A DNA stretch of 43,630 nucleotides, from positions 1 to 43,630 of IMG/VR virus record IMGVR_UViG_3300025141_016909; one strand, 5' to 3'. Under the pieces are notes generated by a model. That model saw only the letters and a program-made list of their open reading frames with translations. It was not told the DNA's origin and did not search any database. Positions 65-19,404 of this stretch are shown here, piece after piece; the first letter of the stretch is position 1; each line of letters starts with the position of its first letter. Position numbers and translations under genes: made by a program. This stretch comes from a virus.

Positions 65-565
65 ATGAAAGTTCAGCTCAACGATTTGCGCAGAATCATT
101 CGCGAAGAACTTAAGCGCCATCGCCTTAACGAAGATAGTGCAAAGACGACCGCAGGCAAAAAAATGGAAGTAAACCCGTCATCGAAGACCCCGCCGACAA
201 CAGATGGTGTATCATTTGTCCTGTCAAACGACGGCGACATATCCAATTTACTCAGTGGCGGTCTACAGGTATTCAAGGGCATAGGCTGGCTTAAAAACAG
301 AGCTTTCGGTGTTAAAGCAACCGGGAATCGTCCAGATGCTCTATCAGGAGACAAAGCTCCTTACGGAGCGCAGCTTAACCTTCTCTACAATCCAATTAAG
401 GACGAAGCGATCGCAGGAACAGAAGACCTAGTTTTTCAACCAAATGACATGGTCTTTACGGGGAGAGGCGGCGATGCCGTTGAACACGTTCTTAAAGACG
501 CATTGCGATTCGAGATGGTAGAGCTAGATCCAGAATCTATATGGTGGATGAAGTCTAGATCATGA
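65..565 (+). CDS. small protein with N-terminal LRxIIREEL helix; putative head-packaged protein
   Basis: The protein has 166 residues and no recognised enzymatic domain. Residues 1-23 form a basic amphipathic helix (MKVQLNDLRRIIREEL, then RLNE) shared with ten other proteins here. It ends in a Leu-x-Glu site like those cut by T4-type prohead proteases. A Ser/Thr/Pro-rich linker (residues 25-47) follows, then a small domain containing GGLQVFKGIGWL and a C-terminal WWMKSRS. AGGAG lies 8 nt before the ATG. The stop overlaps the next start by 4 nt, so the two are probably co-translated. Packaging in the head is inferred from the N-terminus alone. Confidence 0.7.
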   Translation: MKVQLNDLRRIIREELKRHRLNEDSAKTTAGKKMEVNPSSKTPPTTDGVSFVLSNDGDISNLLSGGLQVFKGIGWLKNRAFGVKATGNRPDALSGDKAPYGAQLNLLYNPIKDEAIAGTEDLVFQPNDMVFTGRGGDAVEHVLKDALRFEMVELDPESIWWMKSRS

Positions 566-1041
566 AAATCTCAATGAAAAAGATCAAGAACATTATCTCC
601 GAAGAGATGAAGTCTGCGTTTCCTCCGACGCTAGGCCATGCAGATATTCAAAAGATGGTTTTGGCGGAGCTTACACGTTATCGTCGTGAACTTGGCGAGG
701 CTTCTGATGCACCTACTACGCCTGAGCTAAACGAGGGGGAAGACGCTGTTGACTTCTCAGTTGACTACGAGGTTGACGACAGCGAATTGCCGGCCGACAA
801 GCACGATCACGCAATCTACGGAGGAGGCGGCGTCGCCCGCATGGCGCGCTCTCAACTCTTTCGCATCGCGAAATTTGCCCACTCCCTCTACGATCGCTTA
901 GACGACCAAGACGAATTACCCGAATGGGTCCAGTCCAAGGTCGCTACGATGGCGGACAGCATGGACGCCGTGCACGGGCACCTCGATCACAAAATGTCCG
1001 AAATGGGCTTCGACGCAGCTGCCGCATCCGAGGAAGACTAG
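562..1041 (+). CDS. conserved phage protein with N-terminal helix and WVQSK domain
   Basis: The protein has 159 residues. Residues 1-18 (MKISMKKIKNIISEEMKS) are a copy of the shared helix. A second, weaker copy follows around residues 28-48 (ADIQKMVLAELTRYRREL, then GEA). The middle is acidic. The C-terminal part (about residues 88-148) carries a glycine stretch, then ARMARSQLFRIAKFAHSLYD, LPEWVQSK and a helix ending near HLDHKM. This domain type recurs in proteins of large marine myophages, sometimes with a similar N-terminal helix, but its function is unknown. The gene is richer in G+C than most of the window. It starts inside the ATGA overlap with the preceding gene. Confidence 0.72.
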   Translation: MKISMKKIKNIISEEMKSAFPPTLGHADIQKMVLAELTRYRRELGEASDAPTTPELNEGEDAVDFSVDYEVDDSELPADKHDHAIYGGGGVARMARSQLFRIAKFAHSLYDRLDDQDELPEWVQSKVATMADSMDAVHGHLDHKMSEMGFDAAAASEED

Positions 1042-1074
1042 GCTACTAACGAGCCGGAAGGTCTAATATCGCAT

Positions 1075-1446
1075 ATGCCGACGCCTAATACACCATTCTC
1101 AGGCTTTATCATCCGTTCAGGGATATTGACTCGCCTTATGTCGTGGTTTATTCCTGTGGCTGCGATCACCCTGTGGCCCTTCATTATCGTGAACCCGCGG
1201 TGGGAATCTGCACAACTACTACGTCATGAGCGCATCCATATTGTTCAACAGGGAGAGCTCTGGGTCTTGGGTTTCTATGTGATCTACCTGTGGGACTGGC
1301 TCCGGCACCTGCTCTCCGGCTCCTCTGCGCAACTATCGTATCGTATGATCTGCTTCGAGAGAGAAGCCTACGCTCACGATGAGGACGAGGATTACCTCGA
1401 CGCTCGTGGGCGACACTCCTGGCAAAAATATTTCTGGAAGTCCTGA
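1075..1446 (+). CDS. membrane-associated HExxH zinc-metalloprotease-like protein
   Basis: The protein has 123 residues. Two hydrophobic stretches (about residues 18-41 and 62-77) flank RHERIHIVQQ, with the zinc-binding HExxH at residues 51-55. Further on, FEREAY (94-99) supplies a plausible third zinc ligand (Glu95 or Glu97), an arrangement like gluzincin peptidases. Small bacterial and phage proteins with the same HExxH-then-EREAY layout exist but are poorly characterised. It may act on a peptide or peptidoglycan substrate at the membrane. The gene follows its neighbour by 33 nt, lacks the shared helix, and has no strong Shine-Dalgarno, so the start is moderately certain. Confidence 0.65.
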   Translation: MPTPNTPFSGFIIRSGILTRLMSWFIPVAAITLWPFIIVNPRWESAQLLRHERIHIVQQGELWVLGFYVIYLWDWLRHLLSGSSAQLSYRMICFEREAYAHDEDEDYLDARGRHSWQKYFWKS

Positions 1447-1607
1447 TTTTTGCTTCCGGGGGATGTTCTTTTGCTTGCGTTTTCTTGATATTGGCGTAGC
1501 TCGGGCAATGGGTCGATTAAAAACTTTACAAAATTAGCTATTTAAAATTTCACTCAAAAATTATACCATTTTCAAAAGGTCCGACGAGATCCGCATAAGA
1601 TTTATCT

Positions 1608-1633
1608 AAATCTTTGGGATCTCCAAAGGAATT
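1608..1633 (+). terminator. weak terminator-like hairpin
   Basis: CTTTGG (1612-1617) and CCAAAG (1623-1628) form a perfect 6-bp stem with a 5-nt loop. It is flanked by AAAT and AATTTT, which can extend the stem across one bulge. It lies in the longest gene-free stretch (1447-1709), where transcripts from the first three genes could end. The trailing T run is short, so termination is uncertain. Confidence 0.3.
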
Positions 1634-1672
1634 TTGAGCAGTAAGTTTGTTAAGAAACGAAATATGTATAGA

Positions 1673-1698
1673 ACATTAGCGCCTATATTTGCTAATGT
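1673..1698. promoter_or_regulatory. 8-bp perfect inverted repeat next to a ribosome binding site
   Basis: ACATTAGC (1673-1680) and GCTAATGT (1691-1698) are exact reverse complements around a 10-nt A+T-rich loop containing TATATT. The repeat ends just before the GGAGAG Shine-Dalgarno of the gene at 1710. It could be an operator overlapping a promoter or an RNA hairpin abutting the ribosome binding site. The symmetry is seen directly; the role is inferred. Confidence 0.4.
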
Positions 1699-1709
1699 GG
1701 AGAGAATTC

Positions 1710-2516
1710 ATGGAACTGACCGCTAGTCAACTTAGAGATATGATTTTGGCCGAGGCCCAAAAAATCGAAAACGAGGGGGCAACTCGCCTCGAAGAAGAGG
1801 CTGTAAGCCTCGATATAGAAACGCTTCGCTCCATTATTCAGGAAGAAGCCCAACTTTTCGAAGAATGTGCCAAAATGTCAGAAATGGATGTCTACGAAGA
1901 AGGTGATGTCGACATGAGCGAAGGTCACGGTGAAGATTCACTCTCCGTTACACATCGTGGTGGCAGCCACGAAGAAGCAAACCCAGAACTTAATTATGAT
2001 GCAGGCATGGACGAAGAAGCTCTAGAAGAAGATAGCTTTCGCCGAGAAATGGATCACGATGACGCAGACATTGATCATTTGCGCCGCATCAGAGATGAGC
2101 TTAACGATCACATCCATAATCTGGAAATGCAAGATGATCGCGCCCATGAACGTGATCCTAGCCTCCATGAAGAAGAACTTCCCGCCGAGCTGGCCGAGGA
2201 AGAACTAGAAATGATGGAAGAAGACGCCGCTGAAGACGCCGCTGAGAAAGCTGCTATGGAAAAGCTTACCGATCAACAAAAACTCGATCTTGAAAAAGCA
2301 AAGAAAGCATACGACGCGGCGAAGGACAAGTTTGGAGATATCCATTTTACCAAGGATGAGGCTGTTAATGAGTCTGCTGATTTAGCTAATTCGGATATGC
2401 TTCAACTCGCCGGATTAGAATCCAAGACTTCCGAAGATACCGAGGCTCTTATTAATGAAGCTACTAAGCGTCCTAATCCTGAGGTTTCACGCTGGATGCA
2501 GATTGCTGGACTCTAG
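1710..2516 (+). CDS. acidic protein with two copies of the shared N-terminal helix
   Basis: The ATG at 1710 is preferred over an in-frame TTG at 1689, because GGAGAG precedes it by 5 nt and because it places the shared helix (MELTASQLRDMILAEAQKIE) at residue 1. A second copy (SLDIETLRSIIQEEAQLFEE) follows at about residues 25-45. The rest of the 268 residues is very acidic and helical, with runs of Glu/Asp and Ala. Residues 60-150 include a His/Asp-rich stretch with DHLRRIRDELNDHIHNLEM. It resembles a scaffold-like or DNA-mimicking internal head protein in composition, but no family is recognised. It is followed 8 nt later by another helix-bearing gene. Confidence 0.68.
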   Translation: MELTASQLRDMILAEAQKIENEGATRLEEEAVSLDIETLRSIIQEEAQLFEECAKMSEMDVYEEGDVDMSEGHGEDSLSVTHRGGSHEEANPELNYDAGMDEEALEEDSFRREMDHDDADIDHLRRIRDELNDHIHNLEMQDDRAHERDPSLHEEELPAELAEEELEMMEEDAAEDAAEKAAMEKLTDQQKLDLEKAKKAYDAAKDKFGDIHFTKDEAVNESADLANSDMLQLAGLESKTSEDTEALINEATKRPNPEVSRWMQIAGL

Positions 2517-2524
2517 GATTTAAT

Positions 2525-2848
2525 ATGCGTATTTCTAAAAATCGCCTCCGCGAGATTATTTGTGAGGAACTTCAATTAGTTCTAGAAGCAACCGATCGTG
2601 CGCCAGTTGTTTTTAAGACCGACGCCGAAGATCGCCGTTCAAAAAAGGTCCTGGACATGGCAAGACAAGCTACTTTAGCCGGCGTTCCTAAAAAAGTTGT
2701 TGAGGATCTTTTAGATTCCGAGCGCGCTGATATTTCTGTCGCGGATGATCTTTCAAAGGCAATGAAAAACGCAGATAGCGGCACTAAATCTCGCGCCGTA
2801 AGCATGCTTGAGAATACCAAGGGAGAAAGCGATGCAGATCAAGCTTAA
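2525..2848 (+). CDS. small helix-bearing protein, unknown function
   Basis: The protein has 107 residues. It opens with one of the cleanest copies of the shared helix (MRISKNRLREIICEELQLVL, then E), followed by an Ala-x-Asp junction. The remainder is charged and helical, with no membrane segment or known motif. The Shine-Dalgarno is weak (AGGAT). The 3' end overlaps the next gene by 17 nt. If the helix is a propeptide, the mature protein would be about 85 residues. Confidence 0.65.
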   Translation: MRISKNRLREIICEELQLVLEATDRAPVVFKTDAEDRRSKKVLDMARQATLAGVPKKVVEDLLDSERADISVADDLSKAMKNADSGTKSRAVSMLENTKGESDADQA

Positions 2849-3185
2849 AGATCTGCGCAAGATAGTTCGTGAAGAACTTGTCGCTATAAGCCCTACAACC
2901 GATTACGTTTTACCTTCCGGCAACATACAAGATGCCGATCCGATGGCACCTGTAACTCAAGCTCGTGCCGTTACTCGAACTGCTTTGGATTCCGACGTCC
3001 TCCATGATTCCGTCCTCCGGGCCATTCGAAATCGAGCCGACCTGCCGGTCGGTTCACCTGTTCGTCAAGCGCTAGACTTGCTTGATGATTCTACCGATGC
3101 TCAAATTTCCGACTTTGTTTCCCGACTTCGAGGGACCTCTAATGGCCCAAATAGATATCGTGACGTCGGTGTAGGCATGGTGTAG
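2832..3185 (+). CDS. small helix-bearing protein, unknown function
   Basis: The ATG at 2832 gives 117 residues and is chosen over an in-frame TTG at 2808. It has GGGAG 6 nt upstream and puts the shared helix (MQIKLKDLRKIVREELVAIS) at the N-terminus. The following segment is Ala/Asp/Arg-rich. A Gly-Asn-Tyr-Arg-like tail, NGPNRYRDVGVGMV, closes the protein. No known domain is visible. Unlike most copies, no Leu/Ile-x-Glu site is obvious right after the helix. Confidence 0.65.
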   Translation: MQIKLKDLRKIVREELVAISPTTDYVLPSGNIQDADPMAPVTQARAVTRTALDSDVLHDSVLRAIRNRADLPVGSPVRQALDLLDDSTDAQISDFVSRLRGTSNGPNRYRDVGVGMV

Positions 3186-3292
3186 CTGCCAGGATCACGA
3201 CGTTAAATTTTAAGATAATTCTGTTTGTTATTGGATAGTTAATCAATGTGTGATACTTGTGTTTCACGGAGATTAATTTGTCAAGGGATAAC

Positions 3293-3550
3293 ATGATTAG
3301 AATTCTTGCACTTCTGATGGCACTTTTATGGGCGAATCACGTCTATGCAGATGATGTGGTCCAGCAAGAAGATTCCGTGACTTATAAGAAGAAAACATCA
3401 ATTGATTTTTCCGATGTAACCATTAAGGGCGAGCTTACAAAGCCTGAAGGTTCATACGTGGGTGTCCGAAAAGGTATTAGATTTAAAAACTTCATCAAAG
3501 TTCGTGCTAATTTTCGGGATAAATTATCAGAAAGCTCAGATAACATATGA
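3293..3550 (+). CDS. small exported protein resembling a deltaproteobacterial C-terminal domain
   Basis: From the ATG at 3293 (AAGGGA 6 nt upstream) the product has 85 residues and begins with a signal peptide (MIRILALLMALLWANHVYA) with a likely signal-peptidase I cut after VYA. A TTG at 3278 behind GGAG would add five residues. The mature part contains TSIDFSDVTIKGELTKPEGS, then a Tyr-Val and a basic FKNFIKVRANF segment. From memory this resembles small exported proteins and domain tails of Myxococcota and relatives with a D-F-x-D-x-x-I-x-G-x-x-x-K-P pattern. The match is tentative. It is the only signal-peptide protein in the helix-protein block. Its stop overlaps the next start. Confidence 0.58.
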   Translation: MIRILALLMALLWANHVYADDVVQQEDSVTYKKKTSIDFSDVTIKGELTKPEGSYVGVRKGIRFKNFIKVRANFRDKLSESSDNI

Positions 3551-3783
3551 AGATATCAAAAAGACAATTAAGAGAGTTTATTCGTCAAGAACTAGACCAT
3601 CGCCCTGTAATTCAAGAACAGCAGATCGATATCTCCGATAAGGCACACGTTGAGGCTGAACTTGGCGGGGCTAAAGATGAGATCTTGCAAGCTATTGAAG
3701 CTTTGGGCGCAAATATTAGTTCTCGCCTAGATGATATGCAGACTTCCTTATCTGCTATAAAAGATACACAAGAATCTTCTTAA
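3547..3783 (+). CDS. short helix-bearing coiled-coil protein
   Basis: The protein has 78 residues. The shared helix MKISKRQLREFIRQELDHRP is followed by VIQE, a potential prohead-protease site at about residue 24. The rest (residues 30-78) is a predicted coiled coil with regularly spaced Leu/Ile (EILQAIEALGANISSRLDDM). No function is known. It overlaps the upstream exported-protein gene by 4 nt (ATGA). Confidence 0.68.
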   Translation: MKISKRQLREFIRQELDHRPVIQEQQIDISDKAHVEAELGGAKDEILQAIEALGANISSRLDDMQTSLSAIKDTQESS

Positions 3784-3808
3784 TAGATTTTATTTTTTCT
3801 TTGCGGTG

Positions 3809-3819
3809 AAATATTTACT
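3809..3819 (+). promoter_or_regulatory. repeated intergenic 11-mer AAATATTTACT (copy 1)
   Basis: AAATATTTACT occurs here and again at 18133-18143. Both copies lie in short intergenic gaps upstream of a start codon on the same strand and are followed by similar bases (GTCTGA and CTGTGA). A phage-specific promoter or regulator site is possible. Two copies are too few to exclude chance in A+T-rich DNA. Confidence 0.3.
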
Positions 3820-3869
3820 GTCTGAACGTAGAATGTAATTCATTTTCGTGCTCCCGGGAGATCTCATAA

Positions 3870-5096
3870 ATGAAATTTAAAATTTCCAGTAAAGAACTTA
3901 AAAACCTTATTCCAGCCGCAAATATTTTAAGTGAACAAAAAGCTTCGAAAGAAGAAGTCGAAGCCGCCGGCGGAAAAGTTCTTATACGCGTCGACAGAGG
4001 CAAAGGATTTACATACGACTTAGATGTCAAAGCCAAAGAATTCACAGTTTCAGGTGCACCCGATAAATTCAAGAGAATTGTCGGAAAGAGAACGATATCA
4101 GCCACTAAGCTTCCTAAAGCATATCGCCGCATTATGGACGACCTTCAAAAACTCTACAAGGTAAGTTCTGATGATGATGTTTTTGCTGCAGCTGAAAAAG
4201 AGGTTTCTGGTGATGTTGAAAAAGAAAAAGCGGCATCGGCGTTTAAGAACCCTTCTAATCTTGGTGCCCTGGGCAAAGATTCTATTGAAGCAAAAGTTGT
4301 CCTGGCTATGACAAAGGCTTTTCAAGCTAATCCTGACTCCTATGAGAAGATGCTTGATATTTTTAGAGAAAAAGAAAAGCTCTCCGGCGGAATGTCTGTT
4401 GAGCCCAATCAGTCGATGGAAGAGTCCTTTATAAGAAAGCTTGTTAAAGAAGCAATTCAAGATCTAACTGAGCAAATGAGCATAGAATCAGACAAAGTTG
4501 GTGAGATCATTGACGTCTTAAAAGGAAAAGTAAAGATTGGCTTCGGGCTTGGTGAAAGACCTGAAGATCAATCCGATGAAGAACTTTTGGCAAAATTTTT
4601 AAACTCAGTTAAGGGCAGTGCTTGGAAAGCGCTTGAGTCTCACTTGAAGAACGAAGACACAGTAGATTATGCTTCCCTTATGCGATTTTTAATAAGTCAA
4701 AGAGGCGAGCAAAAAGATGCCAAGAAAAAAGGTGAAAAAGGTGGCGAGAAGATGAGCGACACTGATATGTTGAGGAAATCACAGGAACTCGCCAGAAAAA
4801 TGATCGATGATCTTGAAATAGCTGACTGGAATCTGGGTGTGGGACAAACAGTCCAAGACTCACAAGCCCAACCTGTCCTGGATGATCTGGTCGCCACATT
4901 TGAACCACTATCTCCGACTTCCAGGAAGGATCTTTTTCAGGCTCTTCAAAAACAAGTTAAGAAGCAAACGGCGGCTGGTTGGTTTACTACTGCAAAATCC
5001 ATGATGGATCAACTCAGGAACATGACCGTCGGCGATAAAGTTGAAGAAATAGTCCAGTTTTTTGAGAAGGTCCGCATGGGTGGCTTCCCTGATTAA
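3870..5096 (+). CDS. large helix-bearing protein with an internal second helix copy
   Basis: The protein has 408 residues. The N-terminus (MKFKISSKELKNLIPAANIL, then SE) is a degenerate copy of the shared helix, ending in an Ile-Leu-Ser-Glu protease-like site. Residues 28-100 form a small beta-rich domain (GKVLIRVDRGKGFTYDLDVK). A second helix copy (MEESFIRKLVKEAIQDLTEQ) lies near residues 187-206. The C-terminal half is helical and Lys-rich, with a KKKGEKGGEK linker near residue 285. Two pieces joined by an internal cleavage signal would fit this layout. No family is recognised. It is followed 20 nt later by another member of the set. Confidence 0.65.
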   Translation: MKFKISSKELKNLIPAANILSEQKASKEEVEAAGGKVLIRVDRGKGFTYDLDVKAKEFTVSGAPDKFKRIVGKRTISATKLPKAYRRIMDDLQKLYKVSSDDDVFAAAEKEVSGDVEKEKAASAFKNPSNLGALGKDSIEAKVVLAMTKAFQANPDSYEKMLDIFREKEKLSGGMSVEPNQSMEESFIRKLVKEAIQDLTEQMSIESDKVGEIIDVLKGKVKIGFGLGERPEDQSDEELLAKFLNSVKGSAWKALESHLKNEDTVDYASLMRFLISQRGEQKDAKKKGEKGGEKMSDTDMLRKSQELARKMIDDLEIADWNLGVGQTVQDSQAQPVLDDLVATFEPLSPTSRKDLFQALQKQVKKQTAAGWFTTAKSMMDQLRNMTVGDKVEEIVQFFEKVRMGGFPD

Positions 5097-5116
5097 TACA
5101 AATAAGGAATTTATTA

Positions 5117-6355
5117 ATGAGTAATCAATTAGAAATCGCGCTTAGAAAAGTCATTCAAGAAGAAATTCGACAAATGGTAAATGAATCAAAGAGCCCAAGC
5201 TTAATGGACGAACAAATTCTGTCAAGAATAGCCTCCCTTTTTGGTCGAGGCTCAAAAGGTGCTGCAGCCGTCGCCGATGATACTGCGAAGGTCGCTGCTA
5301 AAGCGGCAACAGCCGGCAGCGCAAGAACTGCCCAGACAGCGGATGACGTTCTTAAAATTGTGGGTGATGATCTAGTTAACGTCGCTGCAAGACGGGGTGC
5401 TAGGGGATTTTCATCATCAAAAGCTACTGTGGTTTCACAGATTGAACTAGGTGTTCAAAAAGGCCTGTTGACAGCAGACGATGCAAAGCTTCTATATTCT
5501 AAGGTAATGGAAAAAGGACCCGCCGGGGCAAAAGTAAGAAAGAAAATGGCAGATGCACTTAGCGCTGCACACGCTCTGGGCAGATCTCCTCATTCTGGAC
5601 CTAGAATTTTCCAGATCGGAGACCAGACATTTTTTACCCTTCCCGGAACAACTTCTTTCATGCGCCTCAATAAGAATGTTGCAGAAAAAGTCGTTAAAGA
5701 TGCTACTGGAAGAGGAATCGGTGTAAGGACTATGAGAGTTCATAATACTCCTGATCTTCTTAAAGCACTAAAGACTGCAGATGGTGCAACGACCAAAGAA
5801 GCTTTGGCTGCAGTGGCAAAGTTTGGAACTCCTACCGCAAGAGCTAAAGAGTTTCTTGCTAGATTTGTTCGCTATCCTAGAAATGTTGTTTTTAGAGTTC
5901 CTGGGATTGCGGGGCACTGGACTGCTCTTGCAATCGCCGGTATGCTAGCAGCTGGATTAATTGGTAGAGCAACAGCGGGTGAAATCGAGCCCGTTCTTAC
6001 AGATGATGATATTGATGAAGATCTCAACATGAGCGTTGAAGACCTTCCTCCCCCGCCGATGACACTTCCCCGAGAAGACGAAGATTCTGGAGTTGGAGGC
6101 GGTGATGAAGTTGATATCACAGACATCTTCATCAGAGAAAAAGTTTACGATAACACCACCGACCCATCTTTCAAAGATATCAAGTATTTCTTTGATAAAG
6201 AAAAAAGAGAAGTTTTCAAGAGAAGGGCTGATGGTTCGCACATGGCACGCTATTTTCAAGGTCCCCAGGGTTGGAGAGCGGACTTTAAGGGCAGAATCAG
6301 GCGCCTTGGTCCGAGAACTACAGCAGCGATGGAACTGGTCGACGGGACCTATTAA
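5117..6355 (+). CDS. helix-bearing protein with a central membrane segment
   Basis: The protein has 412 residues. It opens with the shared helix in the form ALRKVIQEEIRQMVNE (residues 8-23). An Ala/Lys-rich helical region follows to about residue 150, then a globular part (about 150-255). A hydrophobic stretch, HWTALAIAGMLAAGLIG (about residues 268-284), comes next. An acidic Pro-rich linker leads to a C-terminal domain (about 335-412) with several Trp, Tyr and Arg. The layout matches the products at 7066 and 8247. It could be an internal head protein that reaches the host membrane on infection, but this is inference. AAGGAA precedes the ATG. Confidence 0.62.
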   Translation: MSNQLEIALRKVIQEEIRQMVNESKSPSLMDEQILSRIASLFGRGSKGAAAVADDTAKVAAKAATAGSARTAQTADDVLKIVGDDLVNVAARRGARGFSSSKATVVSQIELGVQKGLLTADDAKLLYSKVMEKGPAGAKVRKKMADALSAAHALGRSPHSGPRIFQIGDQTFFTLPGTTSFMRLNKNVAEKVVKDATGRGIGVRTMRVHNTPDLLKALKTADGATTKEALAAVAKFGTPTARAKEFLARFVRYPRNVVFRVPGIAGHWTALAIAGMLAAGLIGRATAGEIEPVLTDDDIDEDLNMSVEDLPPPPMTLPREDEDSGVGGGDEVDITDIFIREKVYDNTTDPSFKDIKYFFDKEKREVFKRRADGSHMARYFQGPQGWRADFKGRIRRLGPRTTAAMELVDGTY

Positions 6356-6507
6356 TGAGCAAGCCTTCTCCCTTAACTCCTAATAGACAAGAAAAAGAAA
6401 GCACTGCCGGCAGACTTAAAGCTGCTGCAACAAAAGCTATTGAAAATTCTGGCTTAGACGATACTGTAATCCAGCTTCTTAAAAAGGTTCTTGGCAAAGT
6501 AGGTTAA
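6355..6507 (+). CDS. 50-residue basic Ala-rich peptide
   Basis: This short open frame starts in a TAATG overlap with the preceding stop codon and ends in TAA at 6505-6507. The peptide begins MSKPSPLTPNRQEKE and continues as a Lys/Ala-rich amphipathic helix with a hydrophobic C-terminus (VIQLLKKVLGKVG). Tight coupling to the upstream gene and the lack of another frame here support it as real. No homologue is recognised. Confidence 0.5.
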   Translation: MSKPSPLTPNRQEKESTAGRLKAAATKAIENSGLDDTVIQLLKKVLGKVG

Positions 6508-6518
6508 CATTAACACAC

Positions 6519-6545
6519 TTTACTTTTCTATGGAATAGTTATACT
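6519..6545 (+). promoter_or_regulatory. candidate promoter before the gene at 6570
   Basis: TTTACT (6519-6524) and TATACT (6540-6545) resemble -35 and -10 boxes with a slightly short 15-nt spacer. The -10 lies inside AATAGTTATAC (6534-6544), the same 11-mer as at 30-40, and sits at nearly the same distance from the start codon. Confidence 0.42.
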
Positions 6546-6569
6546 GAGAGTGTCTTTGAGGAGACCTTT

Positions 6570-7043
6570 ATGTATGTAACACTTAGTCAACTTAAAAAAG
6601 TAATTCGGGAAGAACTTGGTAGAATTTCCGATGTCAAAGATCCTGCTGAAGTCGGTGCCGTTGAAGACGCATGGGCAGGCGGAGATGATCTGGTAGATCC
6701 CTTTGAATTTGTTCCTGCTGATCGCAAATCAGATGAGGAAAAGCCACCTAAAAGAAAACCTCTAAAAGAGCAAAATGATAATTCTATTAAAGTCAAGAAG
6801 CTAGCAGACGTTTTAGCTTATCTGGCTGCAGCTCAAGATGACCTAGATGAGCTTACTAGGCAAGAATACAATAATAGCTCTGATTCTTTAGCGGATAGTG
6901 ATACAGATCTGTTTTCGGATCTTCATGATAGTGTTGACGCTGTATACAGTGAAGTTAAAAATGCCATTAGTGCTTTAGCACAAGGAAATGTAGTTAGAGC
7001 ATCTGATATTGAAGAAGTCCGTTTACCAGGTGATGATTCCTGA
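6570..7043 (+). CDS. acidic helix-bearing protein
   Basis: The protein has 157 residues. The shared helix (MYVTLSQLKKVIREELGRIS) is followed by an acidic, Pro-rich linker (about residues 20-70, with KPPKRKPLKEQ) and a helical domain, LADVLAYLAAAQDDLDELTR onward (about 76-140). No enzymatic motif is visible. GAGGAG precedes the ATG by 8 nt, and the gene is probably first in a transcript from the promoter at 6519-6545 that runs into the two membrane-segment genes. Confidence 0.67.
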   Translation: MYVTLSQLKKVIREELGRISDVKDPAEVGAVEDAWAGGDDLVDPFEFVPADRKSDEEKPPKRKPLKEQNDNSIKVKKLADVLAYLAAAQDDLDELTRQEYNNSSDSLADSDTDLFSDLHDSVDAVYSEVKNAISALAQGNVVRASDIEEVRLPGDDS

Positions 7044-7065
7044 TAGAATTTTTTAGGAGATTAAG

Positions 7066-8238
7066 TTGACACTAGATCCAGAAAAACTTAAGCCTATTAT
7101 AGCAGAAGAGCTTTCCGCTATTATTGCGGAGAGAGCAGCTACGCTTTTAAAACTAGCTGATGATCTTCTTAGATTTGGTGCCGATGACGCGGCAAAAGCG
7201 GCAACTAAATTAGCAGATGATGTTGGTAAAACCGGAAAGTCTGTTAGCGCTTTACGTAAGAGCTCCAATCCTGCTGAGAGAGAATTAGGAAGAAGATATC
7301 AAAGCTTATCTAGACAAAGAGCTAAGCTTAGCAAAGGTTCTGGTGGAGCTTCCGGTAGAGCTACAGCTAAAGGCGCACAAACACTGGGCCAGTCCGGACT
7401 GGATGATCTTAAGAATTTGATTGATAAGGGTGCTACTGGAAGTGTTAGGCTTCCTGCAGCTAGCGGAAGAGAAGCTATAACAGTCACAGTTACTCGTGAA
7501 GGCGGAAAATCAGCTGTTCGATCTGCAGATGATGTTGCAGCACAAGGCATGGACGATGTTGCTGGTCTTTTAGGGCAAGCAGAAGCTGCGGCTGCCAAAG
7601 GTGATTCTAACAAAGTAATAGAGATTTTTAAGCAGCTGGATTCTGCTTTGGAAAAGCTTCCAGGTGTAGGTAAACTCTATGCTACAAGACTTGGAAAAGC
7701 ATATGCAGTCGGAGATGTTTCTTCTAGAGTCGTCACAGCTGCAGTTGATGATGAAAGCTGGTCAGTCCCCCAGTGGTTAGTAAAAACCCTGGGTGCACTG
7801 GTTGTAGGGGGAGCATTAGCAGGAACACTTTATTTCACTGCATCAGATAGTGATGAAGTTGATATTTCAAACATGGGCCAAGAGGAAGTAAACCTTGGTC
7901 GAAAAGGAACGGATATCACCAGTAAAATGAAAGCTTCTGGCATTTTCCAACCAGGAAATATTTACATTCTTTCTAAACCTTCAAGGGCTGCTGGAAAAGA
8001 TTCCAAGTATCGAGGGAAAGTTGTAATATCAAAATATAAAGGATCTACAGCTAAGCCGGAAAACTTAGTTGCTAGATTCATAAGCGACCCTGGCGGATTT
8101 ACCTGGAGTTTTGTTGAGATAAGAGGGAATGATGAGCTAGACCCGGTTACATTTAAAACCCTTTATCGTAAGTCCGGTGATCCTAACTGGAAAAATAAAC
8201 TTAAAGCTACACATTCTAAGCTAAAAAGTATTTTGTAG
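7066..8238 (+). CDS. helix-bearing protein with central membrane segment
   Basis: The gene uses a TTG start behind TAGGAG. The 390-residue product opens with MTLDPEKLKPIIAEELSAII, then AE. An Ala/Ser/Arg-rich helical region of about 100 residues and a middle domain (110-235) follow. A hydrophobic segment, LVKTLGALVVGGALAGTLYF (about 245-265), comes before a short acidic linker and a C-terminal beta-rich domain (about 295-390) with YRGKVVISKYKG and FTWSFVEIRG. Layout and size parallel the product at 5117, suggesting related roles. A structural or ejection role is inferred only. Confidence 0.62.
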   Translation: MTLDPEKLKPIIAEELSAIIAERAATLLKLADDLLRFGADDAAKAATKLADDVGKTGKSVSALRKSSNPAERELGRRYQSLSRQRAKLSKGSGGASGRATAKGAQTLGQSGLDDLKNLIDKGATGSVRLPAASGREAITVTVTREGGKSAVRSADDVAAQGMDDVAGLLGQAEAAAAKGDSNKVIEIFKQLDSALEKLPGVGKLYATRLGKAYAVGDVSSRVVTAAVDDESWSVPQWLVKTLGALVVGGALAGTLYFTASDSDEVDISNMGQEEVNLGRKGTDITSKMKASGIFQPGNIYILSKPSRAAGKDSKYRGKVVISKYKGSTAKPENLVARFISDPGGFTWSFVEIRGNDELDPVTFKTLYRKSGDPNWKNKLKATHSKLKSIL

Positions 8239-8246
8239 GATACAAT

Positions 8247-9368
8247 ATGAACAAGATCATAGATGTAGAATCTTTAAATTCTGTAATCACAGAGGTTATA
8301 TCTGAGCAGAAAAAGGGACAGGATAAAAAACAGGCCTGGAATGACATAAAAAGTAATGTCTGGAATAATTTAGAGAAAATTAGAAGCGGAGAAGCTTCTT
8401 CAAAAGTAATGTCTGATTTAGATGCGCTGACAACTGCTACTTGGCAGGTGAGCGGATTTAATAATAAGGATCTGGCCGGGCGCGGGGCATATTACATTGC
8501 AGAACTTATTAACTCTGGATTTTCTAAACTTAAACAGATAGCCGCAAAACCTGAGAAATCTGAACCTGACGAGGACGGAACCGTAACAATTCAGGGTAAG
8601 GGAGTCTTCCAAAAAGCAGTGAGAGATATTTTTGATGCTTTTAGACTGAAGAAGTATGCTACAGGCGCAATTTATTTCTTAAGCTGGATTGCTTTTGGTC
8701 CTGCAGCAGCATTTTTTGGTAAGATTGCACCGAGAGTTTTTGGTGCAGTGCACGTGGCAACCAAAGCTGCACCTCCTATAGGTAAGGTTGCAAAGGCTCT
8801 CAATATATCAAAAGGTGCAACTTATAAACTTACTAAGCGTCAAATGGCGGCAGGTATAGGGGCGTCGATGGTTGCGCCGGGACTTGCAGCAGATACCGCT
8901 GTCGGAGCAGAAAAAGTAGTTTCCGAACAAGATAATCCCTTTGAGAGTGAAAAGGTAGCTGATGATTACGGCTTATCTATGAAAAATGCACCCGGATGGG
9001 ATGCTGGCGGGGTCGTTAACTTTATGCAGGATATGTTTGGTGTCACCGGTGCACTAGATGCTTTCATGGAGTCTTTTGACAGCGACGCGCTGATTGCTCA
9101 AAAGAAATTAGGTAATGCGCTTTACTTGATATTCATCCGAGACGATGTAAAGACAGAAGCCGATGCTTATGATAAAGTAATTGAGCTTTTTAAAGGCTTA
9201 TCGGAAAACATCAAAGTACCTAGCAAGCCCTTAGTAAAACCTGAAAGTAAACAACAACCTTCGGGTGAAGCTTTAGCTAGTGCAGAAGAAGATATCTTCG
9301 CTGAAGAGGAATATGATGAAGATGATATTCCAGGCGGAGAAGGTGAGCTGCTAGCAGTTTTTGAATAA
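8247..9368 (+). CDS. helix-like N-terminus, hydrophobic middle, acidic tail
   Basis: The protein has 373 residues. The N-terminus (VESLNSVITEVISEQ, residues 7-21) is a diverged copy of the shared helix and ends in Ile-Ser-Glu. A globular region follows to about residue 125, then hydrophobic stretches around residues 138-160 (YFLSWIAFGPAAAFFG) and 200-217 (AAGIGASMVAPGLAADTA). The tail is strongly acidic. It is the third consecutive large protein with this plan and lies 8 nt after its neighbour. It is probably membrane-interacting; no family is recognised. Confidence 0.58.
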   Translation: MNKIIDVESLNSVITEVISEQKKGQDKKQAWNDIKSNVWNNLEKIRSGEASSKVMSDLDALTTATWQVSGFNNKDLAGRGAYYIAELINSGFSKLKQIAAKPEKSEPDEDGTVTIQGKGVFQKAVRDIFDAFRLKKYATGAIYFLSWIAFGPAAAFFGKIAPRVFGAVHVATKAAPPIGKVAKALNISKGATYKLTKRQMAAGIGASMVAPGLAADTAVGAEKVVSEQDNPFESEKVADDYGLSMKNAPGWDAGGVVNFMQDMFGVTGALDAFMESFDSDALIAQKKLGNALYLIFIRDDVKTEADAYDKVIELFKGLSENIKVPSKPLVKPESKQQPSGEALASAEEDIFAEEEYDEDDIPGGEGELLAVFE

Positions 9369-11288: not shown

Positions 11289-12461
11289 ATGAGCACGTTT
11301 AGAAAACACAAATCTATAGCAGATCGATCAGCCACCGATCGATCGCGCCACAAGCAAAAAATTGAAAAAGCTCTTAAAGAAGGTATTCGAAATATCGTTG
11401 CCGAAGAGTCTATTATCGGACAAGACGGTAAGAAAAAAGTTAGGATTCCTGTCAAGGGAATTAAAGAATACCAGTTTATCTACGGAGACAACTCTAAAAA
11501 GGTTGGTTCTGCTTCGGGCAAAGACATTCACAGGGGTCAGAAGATTGCTGAGGATAAGGATGACAAGAAATCCGGTAATAAGCCAGGGGATAAACCAGGT
11601 GAGGAGTTCTATGATGTAGAGATTACATTAGAGGAGCTCGCAGAATACCTTTTCAGTGACCTTGAGCTTCCTGACTTAGATAAGAAGAAATTTAAGTTCT
11701 TGTCTTCCGACACATTTAGAAGAAAAGGTGTTCGAACAAAAGGTATTCGCCCTCGCTTATCTAAGAAAGAAACTCTCAAGCAGAAGATCCGTCGAAAGAA
11801 GATGTCTAAAAAAGCAGGGTCCTTCATCGAAGAAGAAGATGAAAGATTTCCCTTTCATGAAGATGATCTTCGATACAAGCATTTTAAAGTAAAAGAAACA
11901 GAGATCTCATCTGCAGCAATATTCTTTATCATGGATGTATCCGGGTCTATGAGCACTGCTAAAAAGTATATTGCGCGTAGTTTCTTCTTTCTTCTCTACC
12001 AATTTTTACGTCACAAATACGATAATGTCGAAGTTGTGTTTATTGCTCATACTACCACGGCAAAAGAAGTAAGTGAGAAAGACTTCTTTAGTCTTGCGCC
12101 TTCAGGCGGGACATTTATTTCTCCCGCCCTAGATCTTGCAATGGAAATAGTTGAAAAAAGATACCATCCAAGCAACTGGAACATATACGCCTTTCATTGC
12201 TCTGATGGTGATAACTGGGCAGAAGACGAAGAAAAAGCATATACAGTTTCACAAAAGCTCAAGGCAATATCGCAGCTTTATGCTTTCTGTGAAATCGATC
12301 CAAGTAATGAATCAGCTCAGTGGCGTCAAAATTCTAATAATTCCAGAATGTGGGATGTTTATCAACCCCTGGCAGACAAAACCTTTAAGACCATAAAAAT
12401 GATCAATGCTAAAGAGATTTGGCCTTCATTTAAGAAACTTTTTGGTGGGAGAACTCAATAA
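11289..12461 (+). CDS. yhbH: YhbH/YeaH-family protein (DUF444, von Willebrand A domain)
   Basis: The protein has 390 residues, close to Bacillus YhbH. The N-terminus (STFRKHKSIADRSATDRSRH) and VRIPVKGIKEYQFIYG are hallmarks of the DUF444 family. A von Willebrand A domain occupies the C-terminal half, with the metal-binding DVSGS at 217-221, a GGTFISPAL loop and CSDGDN. In bacteria this protein works with the PrkA kinase and SpoVR in stationary-phase, stress or sporulation physiology; its biochemical role is unclear. The stop codon overlaps the SpoVR start by 1 nt (TAATG), and prkA follows, so the three-gene module is intact. Confidence 0.92.
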   Translation: MSTFRKHKSIADRSATDRSRHKQKIEKALKEGIRNIVAEESIIGQDGKKKVRIPVKGIKEYQFIYGDNSKKVGSASGKDIHRGQKIAEDKDDKKSGNKPGDKPGEEFYDVEITLEELAEYLFSDLELPDLDKKKFKFLSSDTFRRKGVRTKGIRPRLSKKETLKQKIRRKKMSKKAGSFIEEEDERFPFHEDDLRYKHFKVKETEISSAAIFFIMDVSGSMSTAKKYIARSFFFLLYQFLRHKYDNVEVVFIAHTTTAKEVSEKDFFSLAPSGGTFISPALDLAMEIVEKRYHPSNWNIYAFHCSDGDNWAEDEEKAYTVSQKLKAISQLYAFCEIDPSNESAQWRQNSNNSRMWDVYQPLADKTFKTIKMINAKEIWPSFKKLFGGRTQ

Positions 12462-13768
12462 TGGAGTGGACTTTTGACGATCTAGAAAAGTGGGACAAAA
12501 AAATTGTTAAACTAGCTAAGAAATATAATCTTGACTGGTACCCAATCGACTACGAAGTGTGTGACTATCACGACATGATCGGTTACATGTCGTACATCGG
12601 AATGCCCACACACTACCAGCATTGGTCGTACGGCAAGTCCTTTGAGCGAACACACACCATGTACAACCTCGGCATGGAGGGACTACCTTATGAGATGATC
12701 ATCAATAGTGATCCTTCAATATCTTATTTGATGTCCGAAAATCCTCTGGCTCTCCAGGTGCTTATCATGGCACATTGCGTTGGCCACTCCGACTTTTTTA
12801 AGAATAATCGGATGTTTAAGCACACCGATGCAGCTAATGTAATCGCAAGGTTTCATAATGCAGCAAAGAGGATTAAGAAATACTCTGATAATCCTCATAT
12901 CGGCGTAGATACTGTTGAAAAAGTAATAGATGCCTGCCACTCTTTGAAGTATCACAACTACCGTGAATTTGGAATCAATCGAAAATCACATCAGGAAATA
13001 AAGCAAGGCTATATTGATATTGCCAATTCTAGGCCTGAAGAACTTCCTGAAGATTTTGATATCAAAAAGATTCCACTAGAACCTGATTATGATATTCTAA
13101 ACTTCATTGCAATTCATTCCAGAAATTTGGAGTCCTGGGAAAGAGATATTGTCAATATCGTACGAGAAGAATCAATGTATTTCATGCCGCAGGCAATGAC
13201 AAAAATAATGAATGAAGGATGGGCATCATTTTGGCACTATAAAATAATGTCAGAACTTGATCTTCCGCAAGAGTTTCATCTATCTTTTCTTAAATTTCAC
13301 AATCAGGTTCTCCGCCCAATGGTGGGAAGAATTAATCCGTATCACCTAGGATTTACTATCTTCAAGTGGATCGAGAAAAATCGAGGTCTAGAAGAATGCT
13401 TTATAGCAAGAACCGCTCATAATGATGAGTCTTTTATTAGAACTTATCTCAATCAAGAGATTTGTGAAGAACTTAATCTTTTCTCTTATTCCAAGAAGAA
13501 GAAAGAGTGGACAATTGATGATATTTCTGATGATGATGGATGGAAACAGATCCGTGAGGATCTGATAAAAAACGTGGGTTTGAATACACTGCCAAATATT
13601 TATATCAAAGAGTTGAAGAAGGATCATACATTGGTTCTTGAACACGAACATGATGGTAGAGATCTAGATCTTGACTATGCACACAATGTATGTGAACATA
13701 TTTTAGATCTTTGGGGTGATGAATTTAAGTTCTTTACGATTATTGAAGATGATCCTTTCGAGATTTAA
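12461..13768 (+). CDS. spoVR: SpoVR-family protein (YcgB-like)
   Basis: The protein has 435 residues, slightly shorter than bacterial SpoVR/YcgB (about 470-510). The N-terminal family region is well kept: LDWYPIDYEVCDYHDMIGYM, then GMPTHYQHWSYGKSFE. A core with MAHCVGHSDFFKNN and MNEGWASFWHYKIM (conserved His/Glu) follows. SpoVR affects spore cortex formation in Bacillus and is linked to PrkA/YeaH in proteobacteria; its activity is unknown. The His/Glu clusters suggest metal binding. Translation is coupled to yhbH upstream; prkA begins 46 nt downstream. Confidence 0.92.
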   Translation: MEWTFDDLEKWDKKIVKLAKKYNLDWYPIDYEVCDYHDMIGYMSYIGMPTHYQHWSYGKSFERTHTMYNLGMEGLPYEMIINSDPSISYLMSENPLALQVLIMAHCVGHSDFFKNNRMFKHTDAANVIARFHNAAKRIKKYSDNPHIGVDTVEKVIDACHSLKYHNYREFGINRKSHQEIKQGYIDIANSRPEELPEDFDIKKIPLEPDYDILNFIAIHSRNLESWERDIVNIVREESMYFMPQAMTKIMNEGWASFWHYKIMSELDLPQEFHLSFLKFHNQVLRPMVGRINPYHLGFTIFKWIEKNRGLEECFIARTAHNDESFIRTYLNQEICEELNLFSYSKKKKEWTIDDISDDDGWKQIREDLIKNVGLNTLPNIYIKELKKDHTLVLEHEHDGRDLDLDYAHNVCEHILDLWGDEFKFFTIIEDDPFEI

Positions 13769-13814
13769 ACTCCTACTTATTAGTGTGTATTATTGAATGT
13801 GTGGAGCATCACGA

Positions 13815-15746
13815 ATGTCAAAATCAAAATTTGCTGATCTCATTAGTAAACAGAGAGAGGAAAAGAAGGCTTTGTCCTTCGAAGGTACTTTTCTTGAGTA
13901 CTTAGAAGTTGTAGAGAAACAACCTAAGATTACATCTTTAGCTCATCGAAGATTATATGACGTCCTTACGGAGGACGGAATTGAAATCCTAGATGAGACA
14001 GATGATCGTTGCCGCCGCCTCTTCGACAGTGAGAAGACTAAAGTCTATAACTACTTTAAGCCACACTTCTTTGGTATGGAGAGATCCCTTGCAAAGATAA
14101 TGAGATTCTTAAGATCAGCGGCAATGAAAGGAGAGGAAAGTCGTCAGGTTCTTCTTCTTCTTGGCCCAGTCGGTGCAGGTAAGTCTGCACTAATCGAACA
14201 CATCAAAAAAGGCCTAGAAAGAGCAGAAAATATCTATCATTTAGATGGATGCCCAATCAGAGAAGAACCGCTGCACTTGGTTCCTCGTTCACTCCGGGGT
14301 AAATTTGAGAAACTGCTCGGTACAAAGATCGAAGGTGATCTCTGCCCAGTATGCCGCCATCGTCTCTTGGAAGAGTTTGGCGGCAAGTATGAAGACTTCC
14401 CAGTAAAACAATCCTCTTTCTCAGTTCGAGGCCGCCGCGGCATCGGCGTCGTTCCACCTGTAGATGCTAATACTCAAGATACTTCAATTCTTATTGGATC
14501 AGAGGACATCTCGAAGTTGGACCTGTATCCCGAGGATGATCCCAGAGTGCTTTCCTTGAACGGGGCCTTTAATGTTGGTAACAGAGGAATCGTTGAGTTT
14601 GTAGAGGTCTTTAAGAATGAGATTGAATTTCTACACACAATGATCACTGCGACCCAGGAGAAGAATGTACCTTCCCCCGGTAAAGGCGCTATGATTTATT
14701 TCGACGGCGTGATTCTTGCACACTGCAACGAGGCGGAATGGAACCGCTTTAAATCCACGCACACAAATGAAGCTATACTTGATCGAATCGTCAAGGTTAA
14801 TGTCCCGTACTGCCTAGAACTTGACGAGGAGGTAAAGATTTACCAGAAGATGCTGGAGATGTCTGATTTCGATGCCCACATTGCACCACACACCCTTGAG
14901 GTCGCATCGATGTTTGCTGTTATGTCTCGACTTAAACCTTCTAGTAAAGTTGATCCTTTGGTTAAGATGAAGATCTATAGTGGAGAGGACATCATCGAGA
15001 AGGGGAGAGTCAAGAAGGTCGATATTAAAGATCTCCGCGAAGAATCCCGCGATGAAGGTATGACCGGTATATCAACGCGCTTCATCACCAAAGCGCTCGA
15101 TTCTGCACTATCAGACTCTGAAAGAAATATGGTCACTCCAATCTCAGTTAGGGACTCCCTGATTAAGCAGGTGAAGGAGCAGATCATCGATGAGGAAGCA
15201 CGTGAGCGTTACCTTGAGTATCTCCAGAAAACCTTGCACGAGGAATATCTGAGAATCTTAGAGAAGGAGATTACTAAGGCTTTCGTGAGTGCGTACGAGG
15301 AACAAGCTGAAACACTCTTCGATAACTACCTTGATCATGCCGAAGCGTATGTTAATAAGTCAAGAGTAAAAGATAAGGTAACTCGTGAAGAGATGGAACC
15401 AGATGAAAACTTCATGAAATCCATCGAAGAAAATATCGGAATTACGGGTTCTGCAAGAGATGGATTCAGATCTGATGTTACTACTTACATGTTTACTCTT
15501 CTTCGTGCTAAAAAGAAGATTGACTGGAAGGCTTACGGGCCGCTAAAAGAAGCCATTGAGAACAAGCTAATGGCATCTGTAAAGGATATGTCTCGAATTG
15601 TGACCAAGTCTAAGTCAAGAGACAATAAGCAGCAAAAGAAGTACGGTGATATGGTGACCACTCTCATCGAAGATTACGGCTACAATGAAGATTCCGCAGA
15701 AGAAGTGATTAAATTTGCAGCCAATAATCTGTGGAGAGATGGCTGA
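13815..15746 (+). CDS. prkA: PrkA-type serine protein kinase / AAA+ protein (YeaG-like)
   Basis: The ATG at 13815 (643 residues) has GGAG 8 nt upstream and gives the usual family start. An in-frame ATG at 13797 would add six residues. The AAA+ domain holds the Walker A GPVGAGKS at about residues 117-124. A CPVC motif lies near residue 180, and the protein continues with SIEENIG-like helical regions typical of the C-terminal PrkA domain. Length matches cellular PrkA (about 630-645). The enzyme is reported to phosphorylate proteins and, in some work, to have ATP-dependent protease activity. With yhbH and spoVR it forms a full host-type module. The gene shows no break. Confidence 0.93.
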   Translation: MSKSKFADLISKQREEKKALSFEGTFLEYLEVVEKQPKITSLAHRRLYDVLTEDGIEILDETDDRCRRLFDSEKTKVYNYFKPHFFGMERSLAKIMRFLRSAAMKGEESRQVLLLLGPVGAGKSALIEHIKKGLERAENIYHLDGCPIREEPLHLVPRSLRGKFEKLLGTKIEGDLCPVCRHRLLEEFGGKYEDFPVKQSSFSVRGRRGIGVVPPVDANTQDTSILIGSEDISKLDLYPEDDPRVLSLNGAFNVGNRGIVEFVEVFKNEIEFLHTMITATQEKNVPSPGKGAMIYFDGVILAHCNEAEWNRFKSTHTNEAILDRIVKVNVPYCLELDEEVKIYQKMLEMSDFDAHIAPHTLEVASMFAVMSRLKPSSKVDPLVKMKIYSGEDIIEKGRVKKVDIKDLREESRDEGMTGISTRFITKALDSALSDSERNMVTPISVRDSLIKQVKEQIIDEEARERYLEYLQKTLHEEYLRILEKEITKAFVSAYEEQAETLFDNYLDHAEAYVNKSRVKDKVTREEMEPDENFMKSIEENIGITGSARDGFRSDVTTYMFTLLRAKKKIDWKAYGPLKEAIENKLMASVKDMSRIVTKSKSRDNKQQKKYGDMVTTLIEDYGYNEDSAEEVIKFAANNLWRDG

Positions 15747-19085: not shown

Positions 19086-19404
19086 GGGGCCGATCGGTTT
19101 CGACGTGGTCGGATGTTGAGGTGATGCAAGTCCTGGAGGTGCCCGGCCAGGTAAAAAGGCACAAAATAATAATCGCAAATGACGATTTTAACATGGAGAT
19201 GGCGGCTTAAAAACCTGACCACTTCTGAGGTGGCAACAACCGATAAACAGAAAGTTGCTTGAGATAAAAGGTTTCGCTTACTCCTTTTAAAAGTAAGCAT
19301 TTTTTTGAGATGCGCTTGCTGGAGCCAAAAACCAGCTAAACTTGTAAATGAATCCCTACAATTGAAGGTTACGGACGCGGGTTCGATTCCCGCCGGCTCC
19401 ACCA
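19086..19404 (+). ncRNA. ssrA: transfer-messenger RNA (one-piece tmRNA)
   Basis: The 5' end GGGGCC (19086-19091) pairs with GGCTCC (19395-19400) before the discriminator A and an encoded CCA at 19402-19404. The T-arm GGGTTCGATTCCCGCC matches tRNA-like domains, and the 5' GATCGGTTTCGACGTGG is typical tmRNA. The tag reading frame resumes at GCA (19175) and reads ANDDFNMEMAA before TAA (19208-19210). Its Ala-Ala end suits ClpXP-type proteolysis. The 319-nt length is normal. It rescues stalled ribosomes and tags nascent proteins. The minus-strand frame across it is spurious. Confidence 0.95.

Follow-up and report, generated by a model that had tools for sequence, protein, structure and literature searches.

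The internal proteins of bacteriophage T4 have capsid-targeting propeptides of 10–19 residues, and the gp21 protease cleaves after L/I-X-E (PMC9026906). In IPI, IPII, IPIII, and Alt, a short N-terminal propeptide precedes otherwise unrelated proteins, the signal of IPIII being 10 residues long; in IPIII, a Glu-to-Asp change at the cut site leaves packaging possible but prevents the trimming. This class of T4 proteins includes the anti-restriction protein IPI and the host-modifying enzyme Alt. In the giant phages SPN3US and phiKZ, the ejection proteins bear propeptides cut by the prohead protease (PMC5694885), and many inner-head proteins, believed to accompany the DNA into the host, are N-terminally processed by the phage protease; these propeptides are mostly longer than 100 residues, end in A/S-x-E-type sites (AVE, SQE, SLE), and have no common short helix.

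The DNA analyzed here (hereafter the window) is an IMG/VR record of 43,630 bases (IMGVR_UViG_3300025141_016909) and represents a fragment from a large marine phage. An earlier note made from the sequence alone had proposed that eleven genes within its first 9.4 kb begin with one helix (hereafter the tag) serving as a capsid-targeting, protease-cut propeptide. This proposal was supported by both a search for the protease and a wide profile search, and the helix is likely a T4-kind capsid-targeting propeptide cut by a gp21-type protease, whose mature cargo would be delivered to the host, with the cleavage, packaging, and ejection being inferred. As in T4, the short putative propeptide stands on otherwise unrelated proteins, the predicted cut follows L/I-x-E, and a gp21-family protease and a gp23-type capsid are encoded by long relatives of the window, itself a fragment without head genes. 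Unlike in T4, the conserved amphipathic helix is longer (approximately 16 residues plus a linker of 4–8 residues), and the predicted propeptide spans 20–24 residues in most window copies; since this lies outside the 10–19-residue range of T4, we regard the system as a variant rather than a plain member of the T4 type. Moreover, T4 has a handful of such genes, whereas here there are tens of tagged genes per genome with almost all bodies being orphans, and a C-terminal RWxxLAGI motif is common to the scaffold and some tagged proteins. In helix length, in its much larger scale, and in its connection with the C-terminal end of the scaffold, the system is new relative to T4 capsid targeting. The resemblance to SPN3US and phiKZ lies in the many inner-head proteins predicted to be processed at the N-terminus and to enter the host, but the present phages have an S77 protease of the T4 type and an L/I/V-x-E site.

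All eleven open reading frames, each on the plus strand, were present at the starts assigned to them in the earlier note. To score the helices, a profile was built from 453 tags of other phages with the window left out, and internal windows of the same proteins served as background (99.9% level, 4.0). The highest scores were given by genes 2525–2848 (30.0; predicted propeptide at 2525–2587, MRISKNRLREIICEELQLVLE↓A, the arrow marking the predicted cut), 3547–3783 (30.0; 3547–3618, MKISKRQLREFIRQELDHRPVIQE↓Q), and 6570–7043 (29.7; helix at 6570–6617, MYVTLSQLKKVIREEL, without a close site), followed by genes 65–565 (22.9; predicted propeptide at 65–133, MKVQLNDLRRIIREELKRHRLNE↓D, its RLNE site being assigned by reading of the sequence), 2832–3185 (22.4; helix at 2832–2879, MQIKLKDLRKIVREEL, without an obvious site after it), and 562–1041 (17.7; helix at 562–609, MKISMKKIKNIISEEM, with possible later cuts at VLAE, residue 36, and LGE↓A, residue 45). 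Genes 1710–2516 (helix at 1710–1757, MELTASQLRDMILAEA) and 7066–8238 (TTG start; predicted propeptide at 7066–7131, MTLDPEKLKPIIAEELSAIIAE↓R) both scored 12.0, and gene 5117–6355 scored 5.7 in the helix and has a site (5117–5185, MSNQLEIALRKVIQEEIRQMVNE↓S). Genes 8247–9368 (−3.3; 8247–8306, MNKIIDVESLNSVITEVISE↓Q) and 3870–5096 (−4.3; 3870–3935, MKFKISSKELKNLIPAANILSE↓Q) are marginal in the helix and bear strong cut-site signatures, VISE↓Q and ILSE↓Q, respectively. The best score among the remaining 43 window genes was −4.7, and the second best was −14.3. Hence the claim of one N-terminal helix common to the eleven genes held, with nine copies unambiguous and those of 3870 and 8247 marginal.

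The consensus helix reads M-K-I-T-K-x-Q-L-R-x-I-I-K/R-E-E-L plus a few residues, and the core begins at residue 3 in most copies. Codon identity at identical tag residues was 0.45 against 0.39 expected from codon usage; the synonymous codons are thus nearly randomized, indicating that the protein sequence is conserved and that the copies are not recent duplications. Only one clear internal profile match (12.9) was found, consistent with a second tag-like stretch read from the sequence of gene 1710 (1806–1865, VSLDIETLRSIIQEEAQLFEE), which at residues 34–49 reads LDIETLRSIIQEEAQL. An AlphaFold model of protein 562 was of low confidence (mean pLDDT 46), and its helix at residues 5–19 is only suggestive. 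No convincing hit was obtained when the first ten genes of the window were scanned against Pfam and PHROGs, and an IMG/VR search for homologues of the bodies of 3870, 7066, and 8247 found none.

The tag was real in 461 non-redundant proteins, nearly all of them outside the window. The bodies of 486 distinct tagged proteins fell into 339 families, including 290 singletons, with up to about 45 tagged genes in one phage (G003). The view that the downstream bodies are unrelated was upheld with one refinement: the window proteins 6570 and 562, each tagged, correspond to the two domains of a single tagged protein in G001, L005, and L007. The split halves in L063/L065 are likewise each tagged (MRVTVRQLRKIIREAL and MRVRISTLRSFVRKAL). 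Among the few recognizable bodies were a TseH-like peptidase and, with less certainty, an acetyltransferase; some tagged proteins had pentapeptide repeats or a PAP2 domain. The tagged GNAT protein L168:4676–5431 was set aside as perhaps a false tag, since its domain match begins at residue 10. The body of gene 562–1041 comprises a conserved MARSQL...LPEWVQSKI domain, which is seen again in tagged proteins from relatives; cyanophages S-WAM2 and S-H9-1 and Flavobacterium phage immuto likewise have it in hypothetical proteins. In bacterial and archaeal genomes totaling 257 Gb, the tag pattern occurred in only seven stretches on five contigs, all metagenome-assembled, one of which (305,838 bases) contains Peptidase_S77 and a gp23 capsid gene and is therefore a phage contig. 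A tblastn search of cultured phages with the bare tag or tagged proteins gave no useful match, the bare tag probably being too short, and the literal tag sequences appeared in no paper of the literature searched.

The site predicted to follow the helix was assessed statistically. In the window, [LIVM][LIVM]xE[AQSGTN] occurred within the first 32 residues of six genes (3870, 8247, 5117, 3547, 2525, and 1710) against 1.2 expected from internal windows; all six belong to the eleven, and the site was absent from the first 32 residues of the other window genes of at least 70 amino acids. Among the 461 non-redundant tagged proteins, 288 had [LIVM]xE within 16 residues after the helix, compared with 155.9 in shuffles (z 15.2). 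When Glu was replaced by D, Q, K, R, A, S, T, G, or P, the ratios were 0.8–1.04 (N, 1.25); with altered spacing, [LIVM]E and [LIVM]xxxE were depleted and [LIVM]xxE was mildly raised (1.29). The extended site in which A, Q, S, G, T, or N follows [LIVM]xE was found 167 times against 58 expected, while no enrichment of [LIVM]xE was seen at residues 28–41 (88 versus 99). The earlier observation of Leu/Ile/Val-x-Glu soon after the helix was thereby borne out in statistical terms by the wide profile search, as a Glu-specific (L/I/V/M)-x-E signature. Approximately 38% of the tagged proteins lack a site within 16 residues of the helix, and window genes 562, 2832, and 6570 have none directly after it.

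A similar site was observed in the capsid proteins. All 16 distinct gp23-type proteins examined contain [LVI][LVI]xE↓[ASQ] where the propeptide is expected to end, for example LLENQAKELLRE↓ASS, with the cut position inferred. The site behind the tag and that of the capsid proteins thus belong to one kind, although the evidence for the former is statistical rather than biochemical and the cutting itself is inferred. In the cultured Flavobacterium phage vB_FspM_immuto, gp84, gp80, and gp72 start with MGKVNKAYIENIIKEILSE, MKKSQLRQIIKEAL, and MKKSQIVKAVQEVLEE, respectively, and the capsid protein has the site IVSE↓A. In immuto gp83 (L136, record 111675), a variant of the scaffold motif stands at the N-terminus with a site behind it (MKKQILSEQFRRMQKLAGIITE↓S); this motif might constitute a second kind of head address. 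No papers on virion proteomics of immuto were found in the literature searched, nor were any cleavage or virion data for the tagged lineage.

Using the PrkA-like gene at 13.8 kb, 142 related virus stretches were collected, 80 of which were retained as loci. The closest long relative, G001 (235,681 bases; PrkA 94%), is colinear with the window: beyond 10.8 kb, the majority of window genes recur in it in unchanged order at approximately 40–94% identity. Just upstream of this block, the gene content differs largely between the window and its relatives, and at that place G001 and L005 have tagged genes with mostly unrelated bodies. L002 is 100% identical over much of the common stretch, yet diverges already at the YeaH-like gene. 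As the upstream tagged region differs while the block is kept, the tagged cluster behaves as a variable island, and the turnover of bodies behind a shared helix is an observed property of the lineage.

The window itself has neither protease nor head genes. G001, however, encodes a gp21-like Peptidase_S77 and a T4-type head, and a gp21-like protease was present in every long tagged contig as well, the window record itself being a fragment. Of 20 PrkA-lineage contigs, 13 had a Peptidase_S77 match above the Pfam cut-off, among them 8/8 of those of at least 165 kb, as did 17 of 26 contigs picked only by the tag pattern, including 7/7 of those of at least 145 kb; the nine tag-selected contigs without a detected protease were all shorter than 135 kb and are probably incomplete. 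None of 14 random contigs had the protease, but these were smaller and not size-matched, providing only a rough base rate. The T4 gp23-type capsid (PF07068) was detected in all 16 long relatives searched. The head genes of G001, G003, G005, and G008 run in the T4 order of terminase, portal, gp21-like protease, scaffold, and capsid protein, with the scaffold- and capsid-like genes of G005 slightly apart. Between the protease and the scaffold lies a tagged or tag-like gene in G001 (MKLTRAKLKDLIKECIVEVLAE↓G), G003 (MAKISKSMLKGIVKECLVEILAE↓G), and G008 (MKKSELKATLKPLIKECIKEV), and G005 has a similar copy near the protease. Furthermore, a W/M-x-x-LAGI-type motif forms the C-terminus of the gp22-like scaffolds of G001, G003, G008, immuto, and Microcystis phage Mel-JY01. 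This C-terminal motif (RWxxLAGI) also occurs on tagged proteins, including that of window gene 1710, which has RWMQIAGL at 2490–2513. T4 late promoters (TATAAATA) were not found above chance upstream of tagged genes. Two near-identical gp23-type capsid genes lie in tandem in G003 (contig of L071; 176269–180150), and G022 also has two.

In the mechanism we propose, the tag helix would attach its protein to the helical core of the scaffold during prohead assembly, and a gp21-like serine protease would then cut after (L/I/V/M)-x-E, roughly 20–25 residues in; the site is supported statistically, whereas docking and cutting are inferred. As the analogy with T4 IPI, IPII, IPIII, and Alt suggests, the mature body would remain alongside the DNA inside the head until its release into the next cell infected. 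The tagged genes would accordingly make up a fast-changing cargo set in which the address is kept and the bodies turn over. With regard to the earlier suggestion that the tags may mark head-packaged effectors, packaging and effector function are both inferred.

The main rival is that the helix is an uncut coil docking tagged proteins onto the scaffold or into a complex, and that most tagged proteins are core components, destroyed or expelled, rather than cargo. In its favor, several tagged proteins lack a cut site, one tagged gene lies among the core genes, and window gene 1710 has the scaffold C-terminus. Against it, the site enrichment is specific to Glu and to the spacing and shows a P1′ preference, and 339 rapidly turning-over body families are too diverse for a structural core; we thus consider this explanation unlikely. 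Far less probable is that the helix sorts proteins elsewhere, such as into a phage nucleus or a membrane. Such sorting would in general be compatible with a helix at the N-terminus of many proteins, but the heads are of the T4 type, the prohead-protease site signature would be left unexplained, and the 14-residue core, with its many residues of either charge, is not a hydrophobic signal. Import into a phage nucleus, the alternative raised in the earlier note, was rejected on the basis of the T4-type heads and of the search for the phiKZ nuclear shell protein (gp54; chimallin, Chimalliviridae), which found no relative in 12 tagged records; gp54 found itself, although a very distant homologue could escape. 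Finally, a functionless common N-terminus left by tandem duplication of small genes, albeit compatible with the frequent tandem arrangement of tagged genes, is very improbable given the near-random synonymous positions at conserved residues, the unrelated bodies, and the tagging of each half of the split protein.

With the capsid-targeting propeptide retained as the preferred reading, the tag and cut site offer a sequence-only key to phage head contents, by which hundreds of orphan small proteins in virus metagenomes become predicted head-packaged, host-delivered proteins, a prediction that is testable in a cultured relative. The tag could also be used in the laboratory as a signal for loading phage heads. 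In a bolder reading, widespread uncultured T4-like marine phages load tens of interchangeable proteins per particle via one universal tag, forming an exceptionally large, fast-evolving injected repertoire, and the C-terminal RWxxLAGI is a second address borrowed from the scaffold protein; taken jointly, these propositions could as readily fail as hold.

Downstream of the tagged cluster, positions 11289–15746 of the window encode a trio of YeaH-like, SpoVR-like, and PrkA-like proteins, which we take to be a bacterial stress operon and which is highly identical across the marine phage lineage; among Thermus phages, the phiYS40 group also has a PrkA-like kinase. A phage-encoded tmRNA gene with the tag peptide ANDDFNMEMAA is located at 19086–19404. 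Positions 21070–43630 hold many consecutive genes that, read from the sequence alone, resemble glycosyltransferase, nucleotide-sugar, epimerase, and aminotransferase genes and may be involved in phage surface-sugar or glycan synthesis.
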